Below are positions 25,960 through 37,876 of a stretch of DNA of 37,876 bases, in pieces. The position numbers and the translations under genes were made by a program. How positions within the stretch are numbered: position 1 is the first letter of the stretch; each line of letters opens with the position of its first letter. Under the pieces are notes generated by a model. It was not told where the DNA came from and did no database searches. It saw only the letters and a program-made list of their open reading frames with translations. Origin of the DNA: an uncultured bacterium (lineage in GTDB: Bacteria > Verrucomicrobiota > Kiritimatiellia > CAIKKV01 > CAIJXV01); assembly GCA_903824675.1 (NCBI GenBank), contig CAIJXV010000108.1:1-37876 (forward strand), given 5' to 3'.

Positions 25960-26370
25960 TACCTCAATCCTCAGAAACTGCTGAAGACACGGATCACACT
26001 GATAGGGAATGGGGTATGCTGAACCAGTGGTCTCTCTTCGATGACGGCTGTTCGCTCCTCCCTCCCCCCGGCGCGGGGGAGGGCCCGGGGAGAGGGGGAT
26101 CCGCCGAAACGAGACTCGATTTTCCAACGATCCCCCTCACCCTACCCTCCCCCGCGCCGGGGGGAGGGAAAACCTTACACCCCTTGCGAAACTGGATGAA
26201 GTTATTGGGGAGAGTCGCGCAACCCCGATTCCATCCGGAGAAGACGATCCGCCCGAATCTGGTGTTTTGGATTGTGGGCGAAGCCCCCCGTTGCTGTTTT
26301 TGGAGTGGCCGCCACCCGATCCTAAACGGAATGGCGTGCATTATTAGCCCCAATCCTTTAATGTGCCGGG
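25960..26370. other. Intergenic region with large GC-rich inverted repeat
   Basis: About 410 bp. The only clear structure is the inverted repeat at 26057-26169; the open frames on both strands across it follow from that symmetry and from base composition. No terminator with a T-run is seen after the symporter. Confidence 0.55.
26057..26169. repeat. Large GC-rich inverted repeat
   Basis: Arms 26060-26100 and 26131-26169 are near-perfect reverse complements, built on CCCTCCCCCCGGCGCGGGGG and AGGGGGAT, with about 30 bp between them. Each arm also folds on itself (CCCCCGGCGCGGGGG). It is the type of dispersed palindromic unit seen between genes in many GC-rich bacteria, and may help end transcription from the symporter gene. 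Confidence 0.75.
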
Positions 26371-28125
26371 ATGCCTGACTCCTCAGAGTTGATAGTGCCA
26401 GAACGTGAATCGTTCGGATTTGTGGCCGCCGCCCGGCGGGCCACGATCCTTCTGGCCCTGCTTTTTCTGCTGGTTTACCTGCCCATCCTGCCGCAAGTCA
26501 GTCTCTGGCGGGGGGATGAACGCTACTATACCGATGCCGCGGTCCAGATGGTGCATTCGGGTGATTATGTCACGCCGCGGTTTTTTGACGGATCCGAACG
26601 GTTTCGCAAGCCGGGATTGCTCTACTGGGTGATGGCCGGTTCCTACCAGGTATTCGGGGTCAATTACCTGACCACCCGTCTGCCCTTCCTTTTGGCGGGA
26701 GCCTTGATCATCCTGCTGACCCATGCCTGCGCGCGGATTCTTTTTCGTTCGGCCGAAGTGGCGGTCTGCGCCGCCGCAATCATGGCCTCGAATCCCACGC
26801 TGTTTCATCTGTCCGTCCGCTCCACACCCGATGTGCTCATGAGCTTTTTCATGACGCTGAGTTTTTATGGATTTCTGAAGATCCTCTTCGACGGAGACCG
26901 GCGGACGCGGTTTTATTTCATCGCGTATGGCGCGGCGGGTTTGGCGGTGTCGACCAAAGGGATGCTGGGTGTTTTGCCGGTGGTGTTCGCCTTCGTCTAT
27001 GGCGCCTGGGCCCGGCCGCGGAATCTGAAAATTCGGGAGTTGATTCACGGACCGGCGCTTTTGCTGGGGGTGGGGCTGGCGTTGTTCTGGTTCATCCTGG
27101 TTTATGTCAAACACGGCTCTGAATTTTTGCGCATCTTTTTCAATGATCAGGTGGGGAATCGGGTCAAGGGTAGTAAGTTTTACCTGCTCGACAATCTGGT
27201 GACCTATCCCGTGTCACTGCTAGTCCAATTTTTACCGTGGACCCTGATGCTGGCCCTTATCCTGGTCCGTGACCGGCAGATTCTGCAGCGGGAAGGGCGC
27301 CGGCATCGTTCCGCGATTCTGTTTATTGCGCTCTGGCTGGGGTTGTTATTTCTAATTTTCGTCAGCGCCAATATTCAGCGAACCCGTTACTTTTTGCCGG
27401 CCCTGCCCTTGTTGGCGGCCGGGTTGGGCGCGGTGCTGGTATTTGCGAAAAACAGCGATCGGACCTGGAAGGCGATGGTCAAATTCGATCGGAGCCTGAC
27501 CTTGATGTTGGGGGTGGCCGGAGTGGGGATTGCGCTGGCCGGTCGGCATCTGGGGGCCTTCCGGTTGGCTGGTCTGGTGTTGGTGGTCTATGCCGTGGCG
27601 CGCTATTTGACCGATCGGCAGCATCGGTCGGTTTTGCGGTTTGCGGCTTTGGCGGCGGGGATTTTATTGTTGTTCTCGGTGACGGATGGTCTGATGCGAC
27701 CGGTATTGATAGTGTCACCGGCGCCGGAACTGGCCCGTCGACTGGCCCGTGAAAAGGCTGGACGCGATCAGGTGGCGGCGTGGGAGGTCGCGACGAATTA
27801 CGTCACCCAGTTACGCGTGATCTCGGGAGGATCGATCTATCCCGTCTTTTTGGCCGGACCCCAAACGGAAGCCCAATTGGATGCCTATCCTTTTGTGATT
27901 TGCAATGATCGCCGGCGCGAGGAGGTTTTGCGGTGCGGGTATAGTTTGTATCCCTGCGGATTTGTCTATCGGAAATGGACCTGGCGACGGTTGGTCGCGT
28001 TGTTCCAGGCATCCGATCCGGATCCGGTCCTGCATGATCAACGTCAAGATTACTACCTGGGGATTCGGCGCCCGCCTCATTCCGGATCGAATCCGCCGGT
28101 TCAGAAAGAAGATGGGTTGAGATGA
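26371..28125 (+). CDS. ArnT/PMT-type membrane glycosyltransferase
   Basis: 584 residues with roughly a dozen membrane helices. The first extracytoplasmic loop has the catalytic-type acidic pair Asp49-Glu50 (WRGDERYYTDAA) and the block GDYVTPRFFDGSERFRKPGL, characteristic of the PMT_2/ArnT group that moves a sugar from a polyprenyl-phosphate carrier to lipid A or proteins on the outer side of the inner membrane. The soluble C-terminal part (after about 450) is less conserved. No Shine-Dalgarno is evident at the ATG. Its stop overlaps the next start (ATGA). Donor and acceptor are unknown. Confidence 0.88.
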   Translation: MPDSSELIVPERESFGFVAAARRATILLALLFLLVYLPILPQVSLWRGDERYYTDAAVQMVHSGDYVTPRFFDGSERFRKPGLLYWVMAGSYQVFGVNYLTTRLPFLLAGALIILLTHACARILFRSAEVAVCAAAIMASNPTLFHLSVRSTPDVLMSFFMTLSFYGFLKILFDGDRRTRFYFIAYGAAGLAVSTKGMLGVLPVVFAFVYGAWARPRNLKIRELIHGPALLLGVGLALFWFILVYVKHGSEFLRIFFNDQVGNRVKGSKFYLLDNLVTYPVSLLVQFLPWTLMLALILVRDRQILQREGRRHRSAILFIALWLGLLFLIFVSANIQRTRYFLPALPLLAAGLGAVLVFAKNSDRTWKAMVKFDRSLTLMLGVAGVGIALAGRHLGAFRLAGLVLVVYAVARYLTDRQHRSVLRFAALAAGILLLFSVTDGLMRPVLIVSPAPELARRLAREKAGRDQVAAWEVATNYVTQLRVISGGSIYPVFLAGPQTEAQLDAYPFVICNDRRREEVLRCGYSLYPCGFVYRKWTWRRLVALFQASDPDPVLHDQRQDYYLGIRRPPHSGSNPPVQKEDGLR

Positions 28126-32697: not shown

Positions 32698-35349
32698 TTA
32701 AGCCCCGGGCGATGCAAGCTGGGCTTGTAGTGCCCGGTAATCGGTTTTGCCGGTGCCCAGGACCGGAATGGCCGGCAGAGTTCGAACTTGCCGGATATTA
32801 TAGAGCGGGGCGAGTCCGCCGTCGCGGAGCCATTGATTGACCGTTTCGCGCTCGGCGGTACGAAGGGTGAACAGCACGATTTCCGGCTGAGTCTCATGGG
32901 CGGTGGCGATGACCGCCAATGCGGGACCTTCATCGCCGGACTGGGAAAGATGTGGTTGAAGCACTTCTTCGATGGCCGGTAAGGAAATCATTTCGCCCCC
33001 GATTTTCACGAAACGCTTGAGCCGGCCCGCGAAAAATAAAGTACCATCCGGCTCTTCCCGGACCAGGTCGCCGGTCCGGTACCAGGTGCGGCCTTCGAAT
33101 TCAATAAAAGGCGATGCGCCGTCGAAATTAAGATATCCACCAAACACCGAAGGGCCCCGGACCAGGAGCAGGCCCGGTGTTCCGGCCGGTACCCGATGGG
33201 AAGCTGTTTCGGGATCGACCAGGGCCTGTTCCAGCGAGGGCATGAATTTTCCGATGGAACCCCGGCGGGGTTCATTTTCGTCATTTAATGAAATGATGGG
33301 CGAACATTCGGTGATGCCGTAGCCCTCGACCATGACGGCATTCGGGAACCGCCGTGCGATTTCGTCGTGGAGCATATCGGGACATTTTTCGGCGCCGGTG
33401 ATCAGGCGGCGCAAGGTGGCGAGTTGGCGGTCGGTGGCCGCCCGCAGGATGCCGTTGGCGAAGGTCGGAGTTCCGGCGAGGATGGAAACCCGGTAGGCTT
33501 CGATCAGCCGGGCGAGGTGTCCGCCTTCGGTGGGGTTGGGATGGTAGATGGCGCGAATGCCGGTCAAGAGCGGCAGGAACAGGGTGCAAACCAGACCGAA
33601 AGAGTGAAAAGGCGGAAGCATCCCAAGGACCCGGTCCTGGGGGTGGAGTTTAAAAACACGCATGGCGTCGCGCAGATTAGCGAGCAAGTTGGCGTGGGTG
33701 AGCGGAACGGCCTTGGGCAGGCTTTCGGATCCGCTGGTGAAGAGTACGGCGGCGGTTTCGGAGACGGGAACTTGATCCAGTCCCCAACAGCCCGATCGGG
33801 CCCGTAAAAAGGCGGACAGCTTGGCGCGGCGCGTGATCCGGGCCGGCAGATCCTCGAGGGCCAGGATACGGTCTCCGAGTGCGGCGAGGGAAGTGCCTTG
33901 GGCTTCGAGGCGTTGGAGAAGTTGGCGCGAGGCGAGGACGGTGTTTACTTGGAGGCGGTCCAGACCATGGAGCATGTTGCGCGATCCCGTGGTCCAATTA
34001 ATCAAAACGGGAATTTTGCCGGCGAATTGAACCGCGAGGAGGACGGCTGTTGTACTGGCGGAGGCCGGCAGGAGCACGCCGACATAAGGGCCTTCAATCC
34101 GCTCGATCCGGGGTTTGAGGATCAGGATCGAGAGGATCAGATCGCGATACGAGAGGGCGCCGCGCAGTTGATCGGCGACGATGATCCGATCGGGATCGCG
34201 CCGGGCCTGGGCCAGGAAGACCGCAGGGATGGTTGTCCCTTCCGGGATTTCGGGCGGGCAGGTTTGGGTTTGGAACCAGGTGGGGGGAATCGGTTTGAGT
34301 TCCTCGATGCCGGTCGCGACGATCTGGCCACAGGCGGCGAGGAGGAGATCTCCGACGGTCTGGAGGGCATCATCGGCGGTCGGGTGAAATCCGAATTCTT
34401 TTTCGATCCAGAGTCCCAGATCCACCCGGGCGAGACTATCAAGGCCCAGGTCGGCGGCCAGATTCAGGTCCGGTTTGAAAGTCTGACGGCCGGTTAATTC
34501 AGTGAGATGCCGGAAAACGAGGGCGCGGACGGAATCCGGGATTTCGGATAAATCGCCCTGGATACGGTCGTCCGGCGGTTCCGGAACAGGGCGGGCGGCC
34601 CCTTTTTCAAAAAAGGAATAGGGGACATAAGTATTGGGAGGGGCGTCCTCGTTATACCAATTTTCAAGGGCGCGGTTGAGGGTGGTCCGATCCGCCTGAC
34701 GGGGCAGGTCAGGGGGTTCGTACAATTCCAGCGTCACTCGTCGTCGCGGGGTGAAAAGCAGGCCGTTTCGAAGGAGCGCGCCGATGGCATGAAGAAGAAC
34801 CTCTCCCAACTTGGGAGCCCGACCGGAGGCCCGGCTGAAGGAACTGCCCCAGATGCCGCGAGTCCGGACGAGAACCACCCGGGCGGAGGGGACCTCGCGC
34901 AGGATACTTTCGACGGCGCTGTTTCCGCCCAGTTGTTCGAGGCGACTTCGGTAAATATGGCCCGAGGGATAAAGCATGACCGAATCGCCATTTTTCAGGT
35001 CCACTTTACACTGTGCAAGGACCGCTTCGATTTCAGGGCGTGCGGCGGGACCATCGGTGATCGGATCCGGCAGGGCATAGGCGCGGAAAAGGCGGGCGAG
35101 CGAGCGAACGATGGGCCGGTCGATCTGGTGAGTATCGGCGATGGTTCGAGGGTAAAAACTTGGCATGAGACGACTTAAGACGATGGGAGGGTCGATCAGG
35201 GCGGGGTGATTGGGGAGGATCAGGATGCCGCGGGTCCCACGGGCCCGGATGGGTTCCAAACCGGTTACCGTTACCCGGTAACGCAGGGCCAGCAGGAGGC
35301 GTGCGACGCGGGCGATGGCGTTGATGAGAAATCTTTGAGAAAGATTCAT
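32698..35349 (-). CDS. Fused acyltransferase - acyl carrier protein - acyl-ACP/CoA ligase
   Basis: 883 residues in three parts. Residues about 1-235: PlsC-type lysophospholipid acyltransferase with NHPALID (His48, Asp53; HX4D) and a second block YPSGHIYRSR. Residues about 265-340: acyl carrier domain with the phosphopantetheine serine Ser303 in LGLDSL. Residues about 370-880: AMP-forming acyl ligase with P-loop TSGSESLPK (536-544), YGITE (675-679), YRTGDLV and catalytic Lys868 (GTGKTDY). It resembles E. coli Aas (2-acylglycerophosphoethanolamine acyltransferase plus acyl-ACP synthetase) but with its own carrier built in, so fatty acids could be activated, held and transferred on one chain. 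Only about 70 bp separate its stop from the convergent activase gene. No strong ribosome site. Confidence 0.88.
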   Translation of the reverse strand: MNLSQRFLINAIARVARLLLALRYRVTVTGLEPIRARGTRGILILPNHPALIDPPIVLSRLMPSFYPRTIADTHQIDRPIVRSLARLFRAYALPDPITDGPAARPEIEAVLAQCKVDLKNGDSVMLYPSGHIYRSRLEQLGGNSAVESILREVPSARVVLVRTRGIWGSSFSRASGRAPKLGEVLLHAIGALLRNGLLFTPRRRVTLELYEPPDLPRQADRTTLNRALENWYNEDAPPNTYVPYSFFEKGAARPVPEPPDDRIQGDLSEIPDSVRALVFRHLTELTGRQTFKPDLNLAADLGLDSLARVDLGLWIEKEFGFHPTADDALQTVGDLLLAACGQIVATGIEELKPIPPTWFQTQTCPPEIPEGTTIPAVFLAQARRDPDRIIVADQLRGALSYRDLILSILILKPRIERIEGPYVGVLLPASASTTAVLLAVQFAGKIPVLINWTTGSRNMLHGLDRLQVNTVLASRQLLQRLEAQGTSLAALGDRILALEDLPARITRRAKLSAFLRARSGCWGLDQVPVSETAAVLFTSGSESLPKAVPLTHANLLANLRDAMRVFKLHPQDRVLGMLPPFHSFGLVCTLFLPLLTGIRAIYHPNPTEGGHLARLIEAYRVSILAGTPTFANGILRAATDRQLATLRRLITGAEKCPDMLHDEIARRFPNAVMVEGYGITECSPIISLNDENEPRRGSIGKFMPSLEQALVDPETASHRVPAGTPGLLLVRGPSVFGGYLNFDGASPFIEFEGRTWYRTGDLVREEPDGTLFFAGRLKRFVKIGGEMISLPAIEEVLQPHLSQSGDEGPALAVIATAHETQPEIVLFTLRTAERETVNQWLRDGGLAPLYNIRQVRTLPAIPVLGTGKTDYRALQAQLASPGA

Positions 35350-35903
35350 GGGCTAGTGTCGGATTTTCACAGGAGATCGTCAAATCTAGAAATCGCCTCT
35401 GATAACGAGTGCTTCCTTTAGATCAGGTGGATGGTAAAGTTAAATGCCGCACAAGTTTTCCCTGATCTCCGACCGTTTTCAATCGATGTCGGCCGCCCTC
35501 GGTGGCGGGCGTCTGGTGATGGAGGGGATTGGATCAGCGGACGCCGGGCGCAGAAGCCCGGCCCACAACAACATGAGATCCCTCGACTTCGCCTGCCCTG
35601 AGGATGTGGAAGGGCTCGGGATGACAATGGGTAGGACGAGATCTCTGAGCGAGCCAGATCTGAATATAAGATGTCTAACAACAATAAGTTATAAAGCGGC
35701 ATTTCGCATTACAATTCTGTTTCTTTAGGTCGTTATTTTACCCTTCCATTTTACGCCTAGGATGTGATACTATTTACCTTGTAAGGTTTTTTGTGACCTG
35801 AAATGGCCGATGGGATCCGCCGGAGTGCTTCCGGAGGATATTCTTGTTGGGCAACAGCGCTGTTTCGAATACGCCCGTTTTTTTTGTAATGAGGAGTCAT
35901 GTC
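35350..35903. other. Intergenic region before the secreted repeat protein
   Basis: About 550 bp between divergent genes. It holds interspersed repeat copy C (35470-35570), a following stretch of the common intergenic style CCTCGACTTCGC...GCTCGGGATGACA (35575-35665), and a CCGGAGTGCTTCCGG hairpin near 35820-35835 in the probable 5' leader of the next gene. No gene is seen. Confidence 0.55.
35470..35570 (-). repeat. Interspersed repeat, copy C (reverse orientation)
   Basis: Reverse complement matches copy B nearly end to end: GGGCCGGGCTTCTGCGCCCG, CGTCCGC, CCCCTCCATCACCAGACGCC, CGACATCGATTGAAAACGGT. Copies B and C define the full unit of about 100-120 bp. Confidence 0.8.
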
Positions 35904-37772
35904 ATGTTGAAATTGGCACGGTATATTATTGCGACCCTGATGGTCGGGATGGTTTCACTTTCGCAAGCCGCCCAGTACTGGGATCCATCCTCCACCGCCG
36001 GCTTTCAACCCGGCGATGGTTTTTGGAGCACGGTTGCAGCCGACGCCAATTGGAATAACGGGAGCGGCAACGGAGTTCCGTCCACCTGGGTGAATGACAC
36101 GGCCAGCGCGGCCCTATTTGGCGAGAATGGCGGCACGTCCCGCATCACGATCAGCAATGCCAATCTGAGCTGTTGGTATGTTCAAGTGGATGGCCAGAAC
36201 TACGCGGTCGTTCAGACCAATGGCGGTCGCTTGCTCTGTACCTATGTCGGGGGCTCCAGCTTTAAGCTCAGTTCGTCAAATCTCTCCTGGCTGGTGGCCG
36301 GGAGTTCCTCCGCGACTTCGATTTTAAACAGCGCGAACACCGGCGGTGCATCCATGTATTTGGGCAGTACGGCTTTGCCCTCGAGCAATGTGGTCCTGAC
36401 CGTTGACGGCGGCGGCTTTCCGAACAGTGCGATCGTGACGAATAGCGGATCCGGAAGTGTTGCTATTGGCAATTACACCGGTTCTCAAAACTGCGGTATC
36501 AATGTCGTCAATGGCGGCTACTGGCATAGCGGAGATATTACGGTTGGAACCACCGGAGCCACGAATTGTTTTATCAATGTGGATAATGGCACGCTTAAGG
36601 GCGTCGGCAGTGTGTATATTTATGGGGTTTCGGGGAGAGCGGTCGTTAAAAATGGCGGACAACTGGCGACCGGTGGCGCCGGCTTACTGCAGGTGGGTAA
36701 CGGGAACACCTCAACCAACTGTTCGCTGACGGTGGATGGCGGACAGGTCGCGGCCCGAGGAAATGGTCGGATGCAGATTGCCGGCAGTTATTCCACCCTG
36801 ATCATCACAAACGGCGGTTTCGTGACGAATTCGGGGGGGGTTATTTACATTGGGGGGAACGGCACGGTCCCAGTCATCAATGGCACGGTGATTGTCGCTG
36901 GCGGATCGTCGACGCAATCCTTGTGGTCTTTGGGCGGGATGGCCCTGACGGTTGGAACCATGGCGGGCTCGATCAGCAATGAAGTGCGGGTCGATGGGGC
37001 CGGTTTGCCCAACAGTGCGGTCATCACCAATGCGGGGGCGCTGATCGTCGGCAATGGCGAGGGTTCCATCGCGAATGGCCTGGTGGCCACCAACGGGGGA
37101 CGGCTGTTCACCGCCGCGGCCGTGACCATCGGGTCCGGGTCGTTGGGGAATTATGCCCGGGTGGTAGGATCCACGGGGTCTTTGTGGAATGTGGGAAATC
37201 AGACCCTCACCATCGGCAGCGGTAATGTCGGGAATAACAGCCTGACGATTGACGGCAAAGGGGTTCTGGGGGGTGCGATGGTGACCAATGTAGGCGCGTT
37301 GGCCGTCGGCTATTCAGGTGCCGCCAGAGTACTCGCCGCTAATAATTCCGTACTCGTCACCAATGGCGGCGTGCTGTATCTCGGGGCCGGAGCCGCTTGG
37401 GGGCAGGGTACCGGGCATGGGATCGGCATGGCGGATAACCAAATCAACACAGCCCGATCCAATACACTGGAGATCGTCCAGGGCGGAAGAGTCTATTCGA
37501 GCGGTTCGATCTTTGTCGGCTATAATGACTACAATGCGATCCTGACGGGGAACCGATTGATTGTACGGGATATCGATTCCCTTCTGGATATGCGTAATAA
37601 TGCGATCTATGCGCCCTTAAGCGCTCCGGCGAATGCCGCCAGTACCAGCGGAGTGGACGTGCTCATTGATGGCGGGGTGGTGACCAATGTCGCCGGCTTG
37701 TTCCTGGCCCACCGGACGACCGGAGCCAACTTGAATGGGTCCTACCGGGATTTGGTTGGGATAATTCATTGA
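35904..37772 (+). CDS. Secreted Gly/Asn-rich beta-helix repeat protein, probably 3'-truncated
   Basis: 622 residues. The signal peptide MLKLARYIIATLMVGMVSLS ends at an AQA-type site just before QYWDP, and GAGGAG precedes the ATG at 35904 (the open frame starts 20 codons earlier without a ribosome site). The N-terminal WDPSSTAGF...ADANWNNGSGN and the later repeats (LTVDGGGFPNSAIVTN about 162; VRVDGAGLPNSAVITNAGAL about 360; LTIDGKGVLGGAMVTNVGAL about 446) have the layout of autotransporter-associated beta-strand/PEP-CTERM surface proteins common in PVC bacteria. No C-terminal sorting signal or beta-barrel is present: the frame stops in unrelated sequence 15 bp before a minus-strand transposase-like frame, so the 3' part seems lost by insertion. 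Confidence 0.75.
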   Translation: MLKLARYIIATLMVGMVSLSQAAQYWDPSSTAGFQPGDGFWSTVAADANWNNGSGNGVPSTWVNDTASAALFGENGGTSRITISNANLSCWYVQVDGQNYAVVQTNGGRLLCTYVGGSSFKLSSSNLSWLVAGSSSATSILNSANTGGASMYLGSTALPSSNVVLTVDGGGFPNSAIVTNSGSGSVAIGNYTGSQNCGINVVNGGYWHSGDITVGTTGATNCFINVDNGTLKGVGSVYIYGVSGRAVVKNGGQLATGGAGLLQVGNGNTSTNCSLTVDGGQVAARGNGRMQIAGSYSTLIITNGGFVTNSGGVIYIGGNGTVPVINGTVIVAGGSSTQSLWSLGGMALTVGTMAGSISNEVRVDGAGLPNSAVITNAGALIVGNGEGSIANGLVATNGGRLFTAAAVTIGSGSLGNYARVVGSTGSLWNVGNQTLTIGSGNVGNNSLTIDGKGVLGGAMVTNVGALAVGYSGAARVLAANNSVLVTNGGVLYLGAGAAWGQGTGHGIGMADNQINTARSNTLEIVQGGRVYSSGSIFVGYNDYNAILTGNRLIVRDIDSLLDMRNNAIYAPLSAPANAASTSGVDVLIDGGVVTNVAGLFLAHRTTGANLNGSYRDLVGIIH

Positions 37773-37786
37773 GTGGAACGTGAGGT

Positions 37787-37876
37787 CATGTCGAGTCTGC
37801 CGAAATGGAAGTAGATCTCGGCCATGAGACGATGGGCATTGCGATAGCCACAGGCTTGGTTGATCAGGGCTTGAAT
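37787..37876 (-). mobile_element. C-terminus of a probable transposase, running off the window edge
   Basis: The minus-strand frame open from the right edge reads IQALINQACGYRNAHRLMAE then IYFHFADST and stops. The GYRN...R followed by a hydrophobic IYFHF motif is reminiscent of the C-termini of some DDE transposases (ISL3-like in feel), but only 29 residues are visible. Its position right at the abrupt end of the secreted repeat protein supports an insertion sequence whose boundary lies around 37750-37785. Confidence 0.4.

Follow-up and report, generated by a model that had tools for sequence, protein, structure and literature searches.

The gene for a giant surface repeat protein at the right edge of the DNA analyzed here has been split by an insertion sequence (IS): we consider it close to certain that an ISL3-family element inserted itself at codon 612 of this 3,572-codon gene, duplicating the eight bases CTTGAATG. 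The window (the whole analyzed stretch of 37,876 nucleotides) is the entire contig C108 of a 4.24-Mb genome in 124 contigs, and the contig terminates within the element. The 5' part of the gene (35904..37737, plus strand) supplies 611 complete native codons and, by a simple signal-peptide rule, opens with the signal peptide MLKLARYIIATLMVGMVSLSQAA; as it stands in the window, the open reading frame (ORF) extends from an ATG at 35904 to a stop at 37770-37772 and encodes 622 amino acids. Its last segment (37738..37772, plus strand) is a run-out encoded by the IS, namely the 11 residues GSYRDLVGIIH followed by a stop, with the first of these codons borrowing one base from the target duplication, the left copy of which lies at 37730..37737 (plus strand). 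The left end of the element (37738..37876), cut by the contig end, recurs as the reverse complement of positions 1-139 of contig C71, with all 139 bp identical; it begins with the terminal inverted repeat GGTCCTACCGGGATTTGGTTGGGA (37738..37761, plus strand) and carries on the minus strand the last 36 residues and the stop codon of the transposase (IQALINQACGYRN...STQ-stop, 37876 to 37766). The sequence-only reading, which had proposed that an insertion sequence cuts the gene, is borne out in this central point, as the transposase N-terminus, the inverted ends, the duplication and the 3' part of the gene have all been found, and its details can be refined. The break that it placed near 37755 is real, but the element starts about 17 bp further to the left; the final VGIIH, noticed as off-pattern, is indeed encoded by the IS, but belongs to the longer foreign run; and the opposite-strand transposase C-terminus is present, but overlaps the end of the surface ORF instead of starting 15 bp beyond it.

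The remainder of the gene, which had been expected beyond the right edge, was located on contig C104, where the right end of the IS is followed immediately by CTTGAATG, the eight bases also present just before the left end in the window (C104 30714-30707, minus strand). Joined at the duplication, C108 and C104 yield a single open frame of 3,572 codons, 2,961 of which are contributed by C104. Joins shifted by 1, 2 or 4 bases in either direction run into a stop after 612-619 codons, and only a shift of 3 bases leaves the frame open. Residues 561-680 of the joined protein align over the junction with the paralogues g2 (also on C104), C10 and C48, the best of these alignments reaching 47% across 107 columns (1e-25). 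That the protein ends naturally and the element merely adjoins the gene, as might be suspected from an ORF stop situated only 35 bp into the element, has a negligible probability given that both the frame and the repeat pattern resume exactly past the duplication on C104; homologues with a natural end at this point, for which the earlier reading had allowed, are excluded, since the paralogues align straight through the junction.

The element has imperfect terminal inverted repeats of about 24 bp that start with GG, and both of its copies are flanked by exact 8-bp target duplications (CTTGAATG and GTCTTTTG), as is characteristic of the ISL3 family. The inner part of the inverted repeat (37742-37761 in the window) agrees with the right end in 20 of 20 positions. 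A genome-wide search with a 23-base IS-end pattern, allowing up to three mismatches, returned four sites, the left ends on C108 and C71 and the right ends on C104 and C56, and a control pattern returned none. The transposase gene starts in the right end (MNDITVFQTMLGNTDPWVVKG...), its C-terminus being on the minus strand in the left end, and the two termini of the protein align moderately with the complete ISL3 transposase encoded on C106 (PF01610, 8.7e-67). The search for the rest of the transposase was thus successful for the N-terminus, at the right ends on C104 and C56, but not for the middle of the interrupting element, which was not found in the assembly, the C106 gene being the only PF01610 match in the genome. 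C106 itself was considered as the missing middle and rejected; it is a separate and divergent ISL3 copy on an 18-kb contig, with a transposase (L037, C106:465-1181, minus strand) in an open frame of 414 amino acids. According to PMC7643977, ISL3 elements classically duplicate 8 bp, and a Pseudomonas ISL3 element is described there with 24-bp imperfect repeats beginning with GGGTATCCGGAATTT. The CLJ-ISL3 element described there, an ISPst2 isoform, shares with the present one the GG ends, the imperfect inverted repeats of about 24 bp and the 8-bp duplications, and its copies in contig gaps were likewise located through inverted repeats at contig ends; it carries extra genes, whereas just 139-141 bp of each end of our element have been assembled.

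The way in which the contigs end is compatible with a repeated element. The final 141 bp of the window equal C71:1-141 in reverse complement, with a difference (A versus T) at the base just before them; similarly, the right ends on C104 and C56 coincide over exactly 141 bp and diverge beyond. At repeats, a de Bruijn assembly with k = 141 is expected to leave contigs ending in an exactly shared 141-mer, and C108 probably stops here because the element is present at least twice in the genome and an assembly with 141-base overlaps breaks at repeats. An Rfam scan of 35300-37876 matched no family. The second copy of the element, at the C71/C56 junction, is inside the tnpC gene of an IS66 element and has its own duplication, GTCTTTTG. 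The two halves of tnpC match positions 1-54 and 58-284 of the DDE_Tnp_IS66 profile, adjoining segments which indicate that this gene, too, has been split. The IS66-family element itself (tnpC, tnpB and a probable tnpA; L004:113-1551 and L035:2442-3287) is accordingly a nested insertion, with its tnpC interrupted by the ISL3 copy. An assembly chimera, in which a contig end was mis-joined and the gene is intact elsewhere, might be entertained because mis-joins occur at contig ends and because the middle of the element was not found in the assembly; we regard it as very improbable, as a mis-join would not create matched inverted ends, an exact 8-bp duplication for each copy and the restoration of both genes. 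With two genes interrupted and a separate duplication at each, a chimera is in practice excluded.

The insertion is in itself an ordinary event, a clean case in which a surface gene has been inactivated and an assembly has been broken. The 5' half may still yield a short exported fragment, and the 3' half, deprived of a signal peptide, is probably silent as an exported protein. A more dynamic scenario is that the insertion is reversible, or confined to part of the population, and acts as an on/off switch of the surface protein. The two copies do not differ in the visible 139-141 bp of either end, which would fit recent movement but is a weak sign, as contigs that meet in the assembly graph share their overlap by construction; in addition, contigs branch within the repeats of other surface genes (C90 and C16 into C48). 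Among the assembly contigs, however, no uninterrupted C108-C104 junction came up, and there is no sign of precise excision, so that we consider the switch unlikely and retain a plain insertional inactivation.

What the gene has lost is of more interest than how it was lost. The sequence-only reading supposed that the missing C-terminus would carry an export or sorting domain and that the product is therefore probably not displayed. The first supposition was partly upheld, in that the restored protein ends in a short tail shared with other proteins, but no known sorting domain was matched. The half of the protein encoded in the window matches no Pfam or NCBIfam family. In the 3' half, PATR (PF12951) scores 23.9 bits, below the gathering cut-off of 27, and TIGR04393 scores 16.8 bits, below the curated cut-off of 23; neither is detected in the window half. 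PATR is the only Pfam family found at an E-value of 0.01 in the 2,966-residue 3' half, no autotransporter β-barrel being matched, and neither TIGR02595 (PEP-CTERM) nor any other known sorting model matches the C-terminus. The protein therefore resembles the TIGR04393/PF12951 repeat proteins in its long, N- and G-rich repeats, its signal peptide and the weak matches of its 3' half, and differs from them in that these matches remain below the cut-offs and are accompanied by neither an autotransporter barrel nor a PEP-CTERM match. As the N-terminal signal peptide is kept in the window half, export to the periplasm should not need the lost C-terminus, and the claim that the product is not displayed holds only if the tail acts as a sorting tag.

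The gene ends in GSIFKVY, its paralogue g2 in GTVFKVF, and large ORFs on C48 and C10 in GAVFTIY and GSIFSIY. With a first, stricter pattern the own genome gave seven matches and none for the control, four of the seven closing large ORFs. The tail was searched as a DNA pattern, G-[STA]-h-F-x-h-x-stop, in 20 genomes with the reversed pattern as control; in raw counts, which include matches ending in TGG instead of a stop, there were 25 matches versus 8 in the own genome, 154 versus 56 in 17 genomes of the same order (the own genome included) and, with no excess in sum, 10 versus 16 in three genomes of the same class outside the order. Within the order, the raw excess stems mainly from G010 (37/8), G012 (28/7), the own genome, G004 (13/4), G007 (11/1) and G006 (8/0); G002 (5/3), G008 (7/3) and G015 (7/4) are slightly raised, and 8 of the 17 genomes (G001, G003, G005, G009, G011, G013, G014 and G016) have little or no excess. 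In a 194-genome sample of the phylum, where the last residue of the tail was restricted to MGN codons (Arg and some Ser) and raw counts again include TGG ends, five genomes of the same order total 20 matches against none for the control, three of the same class look raised (G112, 6/1; G029, 4/0; G030, 3/1) and each of the remaining genomes has 0 to 3.

Of the 25 matches in the own genome, 21 end at true stops, and the four that end in TGG were dropped before ORFs were counted. Fourteen of the 21 terminate open frames of 622 to 3,244 codons, measured from stop to stop, and the other seven close frames of 9 to 185; the latter were set aside as noise (C13:157097, C103:47380 and those on C46, C47, C61 and C93, with frames of 9-45 amino acids) or treated as such (C55:23707, 185 amino acids). 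The 14 large ORFs end in G-[STA]-[IV]-F-x-[LIV]-x, where a rough calculation with assumed residue frequencies and an assumed 4,000 genes leads one to expect 0.2. By the simple rule, which also called 5 of the 20 window ORFs of at least 300 amino acids (the split surface gene among them), nine of the 14 ORFs encode a signal peptide themselves. For others the signal peptide lies elsewhere, that of the window gene in the window half and that of g2 in an upstream ORF in another frame; that of the C48 ORF is probably supplied, as judged by eye, via C90/C16, the C10 ORF (L057) runs off its contig, and L148 has no signal peptide by the same rule.

Within the tail proteins conservation is limited to positions -7, -6, -5, -4 and -2; glycine and phenylalanine are present in 14 of 14 by selection, and arginine is the commonest residue at -8 (6 of 14). 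Since the 14 proteins, like the seven modeled ones described below, were found by the motif, the invariance of the motif columns arises by construction, and the unselected evidence consists of the excess over the reversed control, the lengths of the ORFs, the variety of contexts and the alignment columns that the pattern does not cover. A rival to the sorting function, to which we give an appreciable though minor share of probability, is that the tail forms the last β-strand of a widespread fold or is a pattern arisen by chance. Half of the 14 proteins share one C-terminal domain family, and short hydrophobic patterns are cheap, as is illustrated by four internal copies of the motif in the 28,176 amino acids of the 14 proteins; against this, BLAST comparison of the 300 residues that precede the last 10 separates the proteins into four mutually unrelated groups (of 7, 4, 2 and 1), and the 14 ORFs found far exceed the roughly estimated number. 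Structure predictions bear on the same question. For the C-terminal 260 residues of one protein ending in GSVFKIR, modeled with AlphaFold from a 7-row alignment, the best mean pLDDT was 78.6, the other four models ranging from 68.1 to 54.2; in the best model 14 residues have a pLDDT below 50, and the only run of at least three among them is 252-260, the tail. A run of low predicted confidence at the tail would be expected of a short linear tag and speaks against this rival, although an alignment of so few sequences can by itself give the same result. Outside the motif pattern, P252 is conserved in seven of the seven modeled proteins.

Judged from the sequences, there is about an even chance that the tail is a sorting tag, and comparison with relatives contributes to this reading. 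Matches to the C-terminal region of the gene occur in 6 of 38 relatives, and the ends could be read in five of these, G010 being the exception. Three homologues from other families of the same class have PEP-CTERM-like ends (L046, TIGR02595 score 17.4 against 16; L043, 15, just under; L044, by eye), and two relatives of the same order, with two loci in G009 and one in G016, close with the tail or with a relaxed version of it (GTLFFIR, GSLIFIR and GTIFKFR). The tail thus takes the position that PEP-CTERM-like ends have in more distant homologues, which points to a sorting tag. When the last 450 residues of 10 tail-pattern proteins were scanned, one, L144, had its tail six residues past a choice-of-anchor Q domain (NF041518, 28.8 bits, cut-off 25, residues 388-437 of 450). 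Choice-of-anchor domains are named for their position before varied sorting signals, and the placement in L144 counts towards the same reading. The fuller proposal, which we hold tentatively and at slightly less than an even chance, is that a short C-terminal tag without a transmembrane helix, G-[ST]-[VI]-F-x-[IVL]-x-COOH, marks the giant exported proteins of a group of uncultivated bacteria and replaces PEP-CTERM, implying an undescribed surface-sorting or outer-membrane export system, in which case the IS would be a natural tag-deletion allele. If the lost GSIFKVY is such a tag, the fragment made from the 5' half might be exported yet neither anchored nor displayed.

Among the known systems, the LPXTG, PEP-CTERM and GlyGly-CTERM signals each combine a transmembrane helix with a basic cluster (PMC3237569), and the tail has neither. 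PEP-CTERM-like ends occupy the same place in more distant homologues, but the tail lacks the PEP motif. The own genome contains two exosortase matches and two weak PEP-CTERM matches (L091, C74:40750-41529; L092, C25:24440-25108; L151; L152), one of the exosortase matches being situated within a 1,345-amino-acid open frame, and a PEP-CTERM system may therefore exist beside the tail. With the C-terminal domains (CTDs) of the type IX secretion system (T9SS) the tail shares the property of a C-terminal signal common to otherwise different cargo; whereas the short CTDs of Prevotella intermedia comprise 43-55 amino acids (PMC11969387), the conserved part of the tail has seven residues. NCBIfam scans of C-terminal parts yielded no T9SS model, and a search of the own genome for the T9SS translocon SprA gave no match, the control genomes being silent too. 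Searches of open-licence literature, including ones that paired Kiritimatiellia or Verrucomicrobia with C-terminal sorting, secretion, exosortase or PEP-CTERM, revealed no description of such a tail. The tail, which several of the largest proteins in a single lineage have in common, is the interesting part of these observations. Should it prove to be a sorting tag, it would identify the substrates of an undescribed secretion or anchoring pathway in uncultivated bacteria and offer a handle for locating the machinery through phylogenetic profiling, the approach used for PEP-CTERM (PMC1569441).

The exact end GSVFKIR-stop was also scanned for in 84,980 species genomes, from which near records of the own genome were possibly left out, with 17 matches in 16 stretches. 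Eleven stretches with 12 matches belong to Loc090907-8m_bin-482 and Loc080925-8m_bin-101, a pair of genomes derived from metagenomes whose contig numbers and coordinates resemble those of G010 and G015; five further matches are singles in unrelated taxa and close frames of only 7-14 amino acids. Seven of the 12 close ORFs of 651-925 amino acids, one is cut by the end of its stretch, and four close frames of 19-36 amino acids (L098, L101:4557-4580, L106 and L108); three of these short frames are alike, with the form GDSCHSxGxW..GSVFKIR, and they are possibly frame-broken copies. In the own genome, large ORFs near the tail-bearing ones (L094, L097, L104, L095 and L102) end in TGTLLQLY, TGMLLEIY, TGGIIMLQ, AGMILRFY and PGFVLTIQ, looser look-alikes which suggest that the pattern counted here may not capture every form of the tail.

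Other irregularities were seen among the giant repeat genes. In paralogue g2 the frame changes after a 158-codon signal-peptide ORF that ends in LQRKIL-stop, and a 2,202-amino-acid repeat frame begins alongside it (L029:5958-5980, about 20957-20979 of C104, minus strand), reflecting either a frameshift or an assembly error. C90:1-141 (L028) and C16:43702-43842 (L030) end in the identical 141 bp that open C48:1-141 (L027), and the two contigs contain paralogous surface-repeat genes with 5' parts about 75% identical; the identical stretch of at least 141 bp may have arisen when giant repeat genes recently recombined or underwent gene conversion. Elsewhere in the window, at 26016-26378, overlapping ORFs on both strands read PPPGAGEGPGRGG and LPSPAPGGG, which suggests short, G+C-rich inverted repeats between genes.
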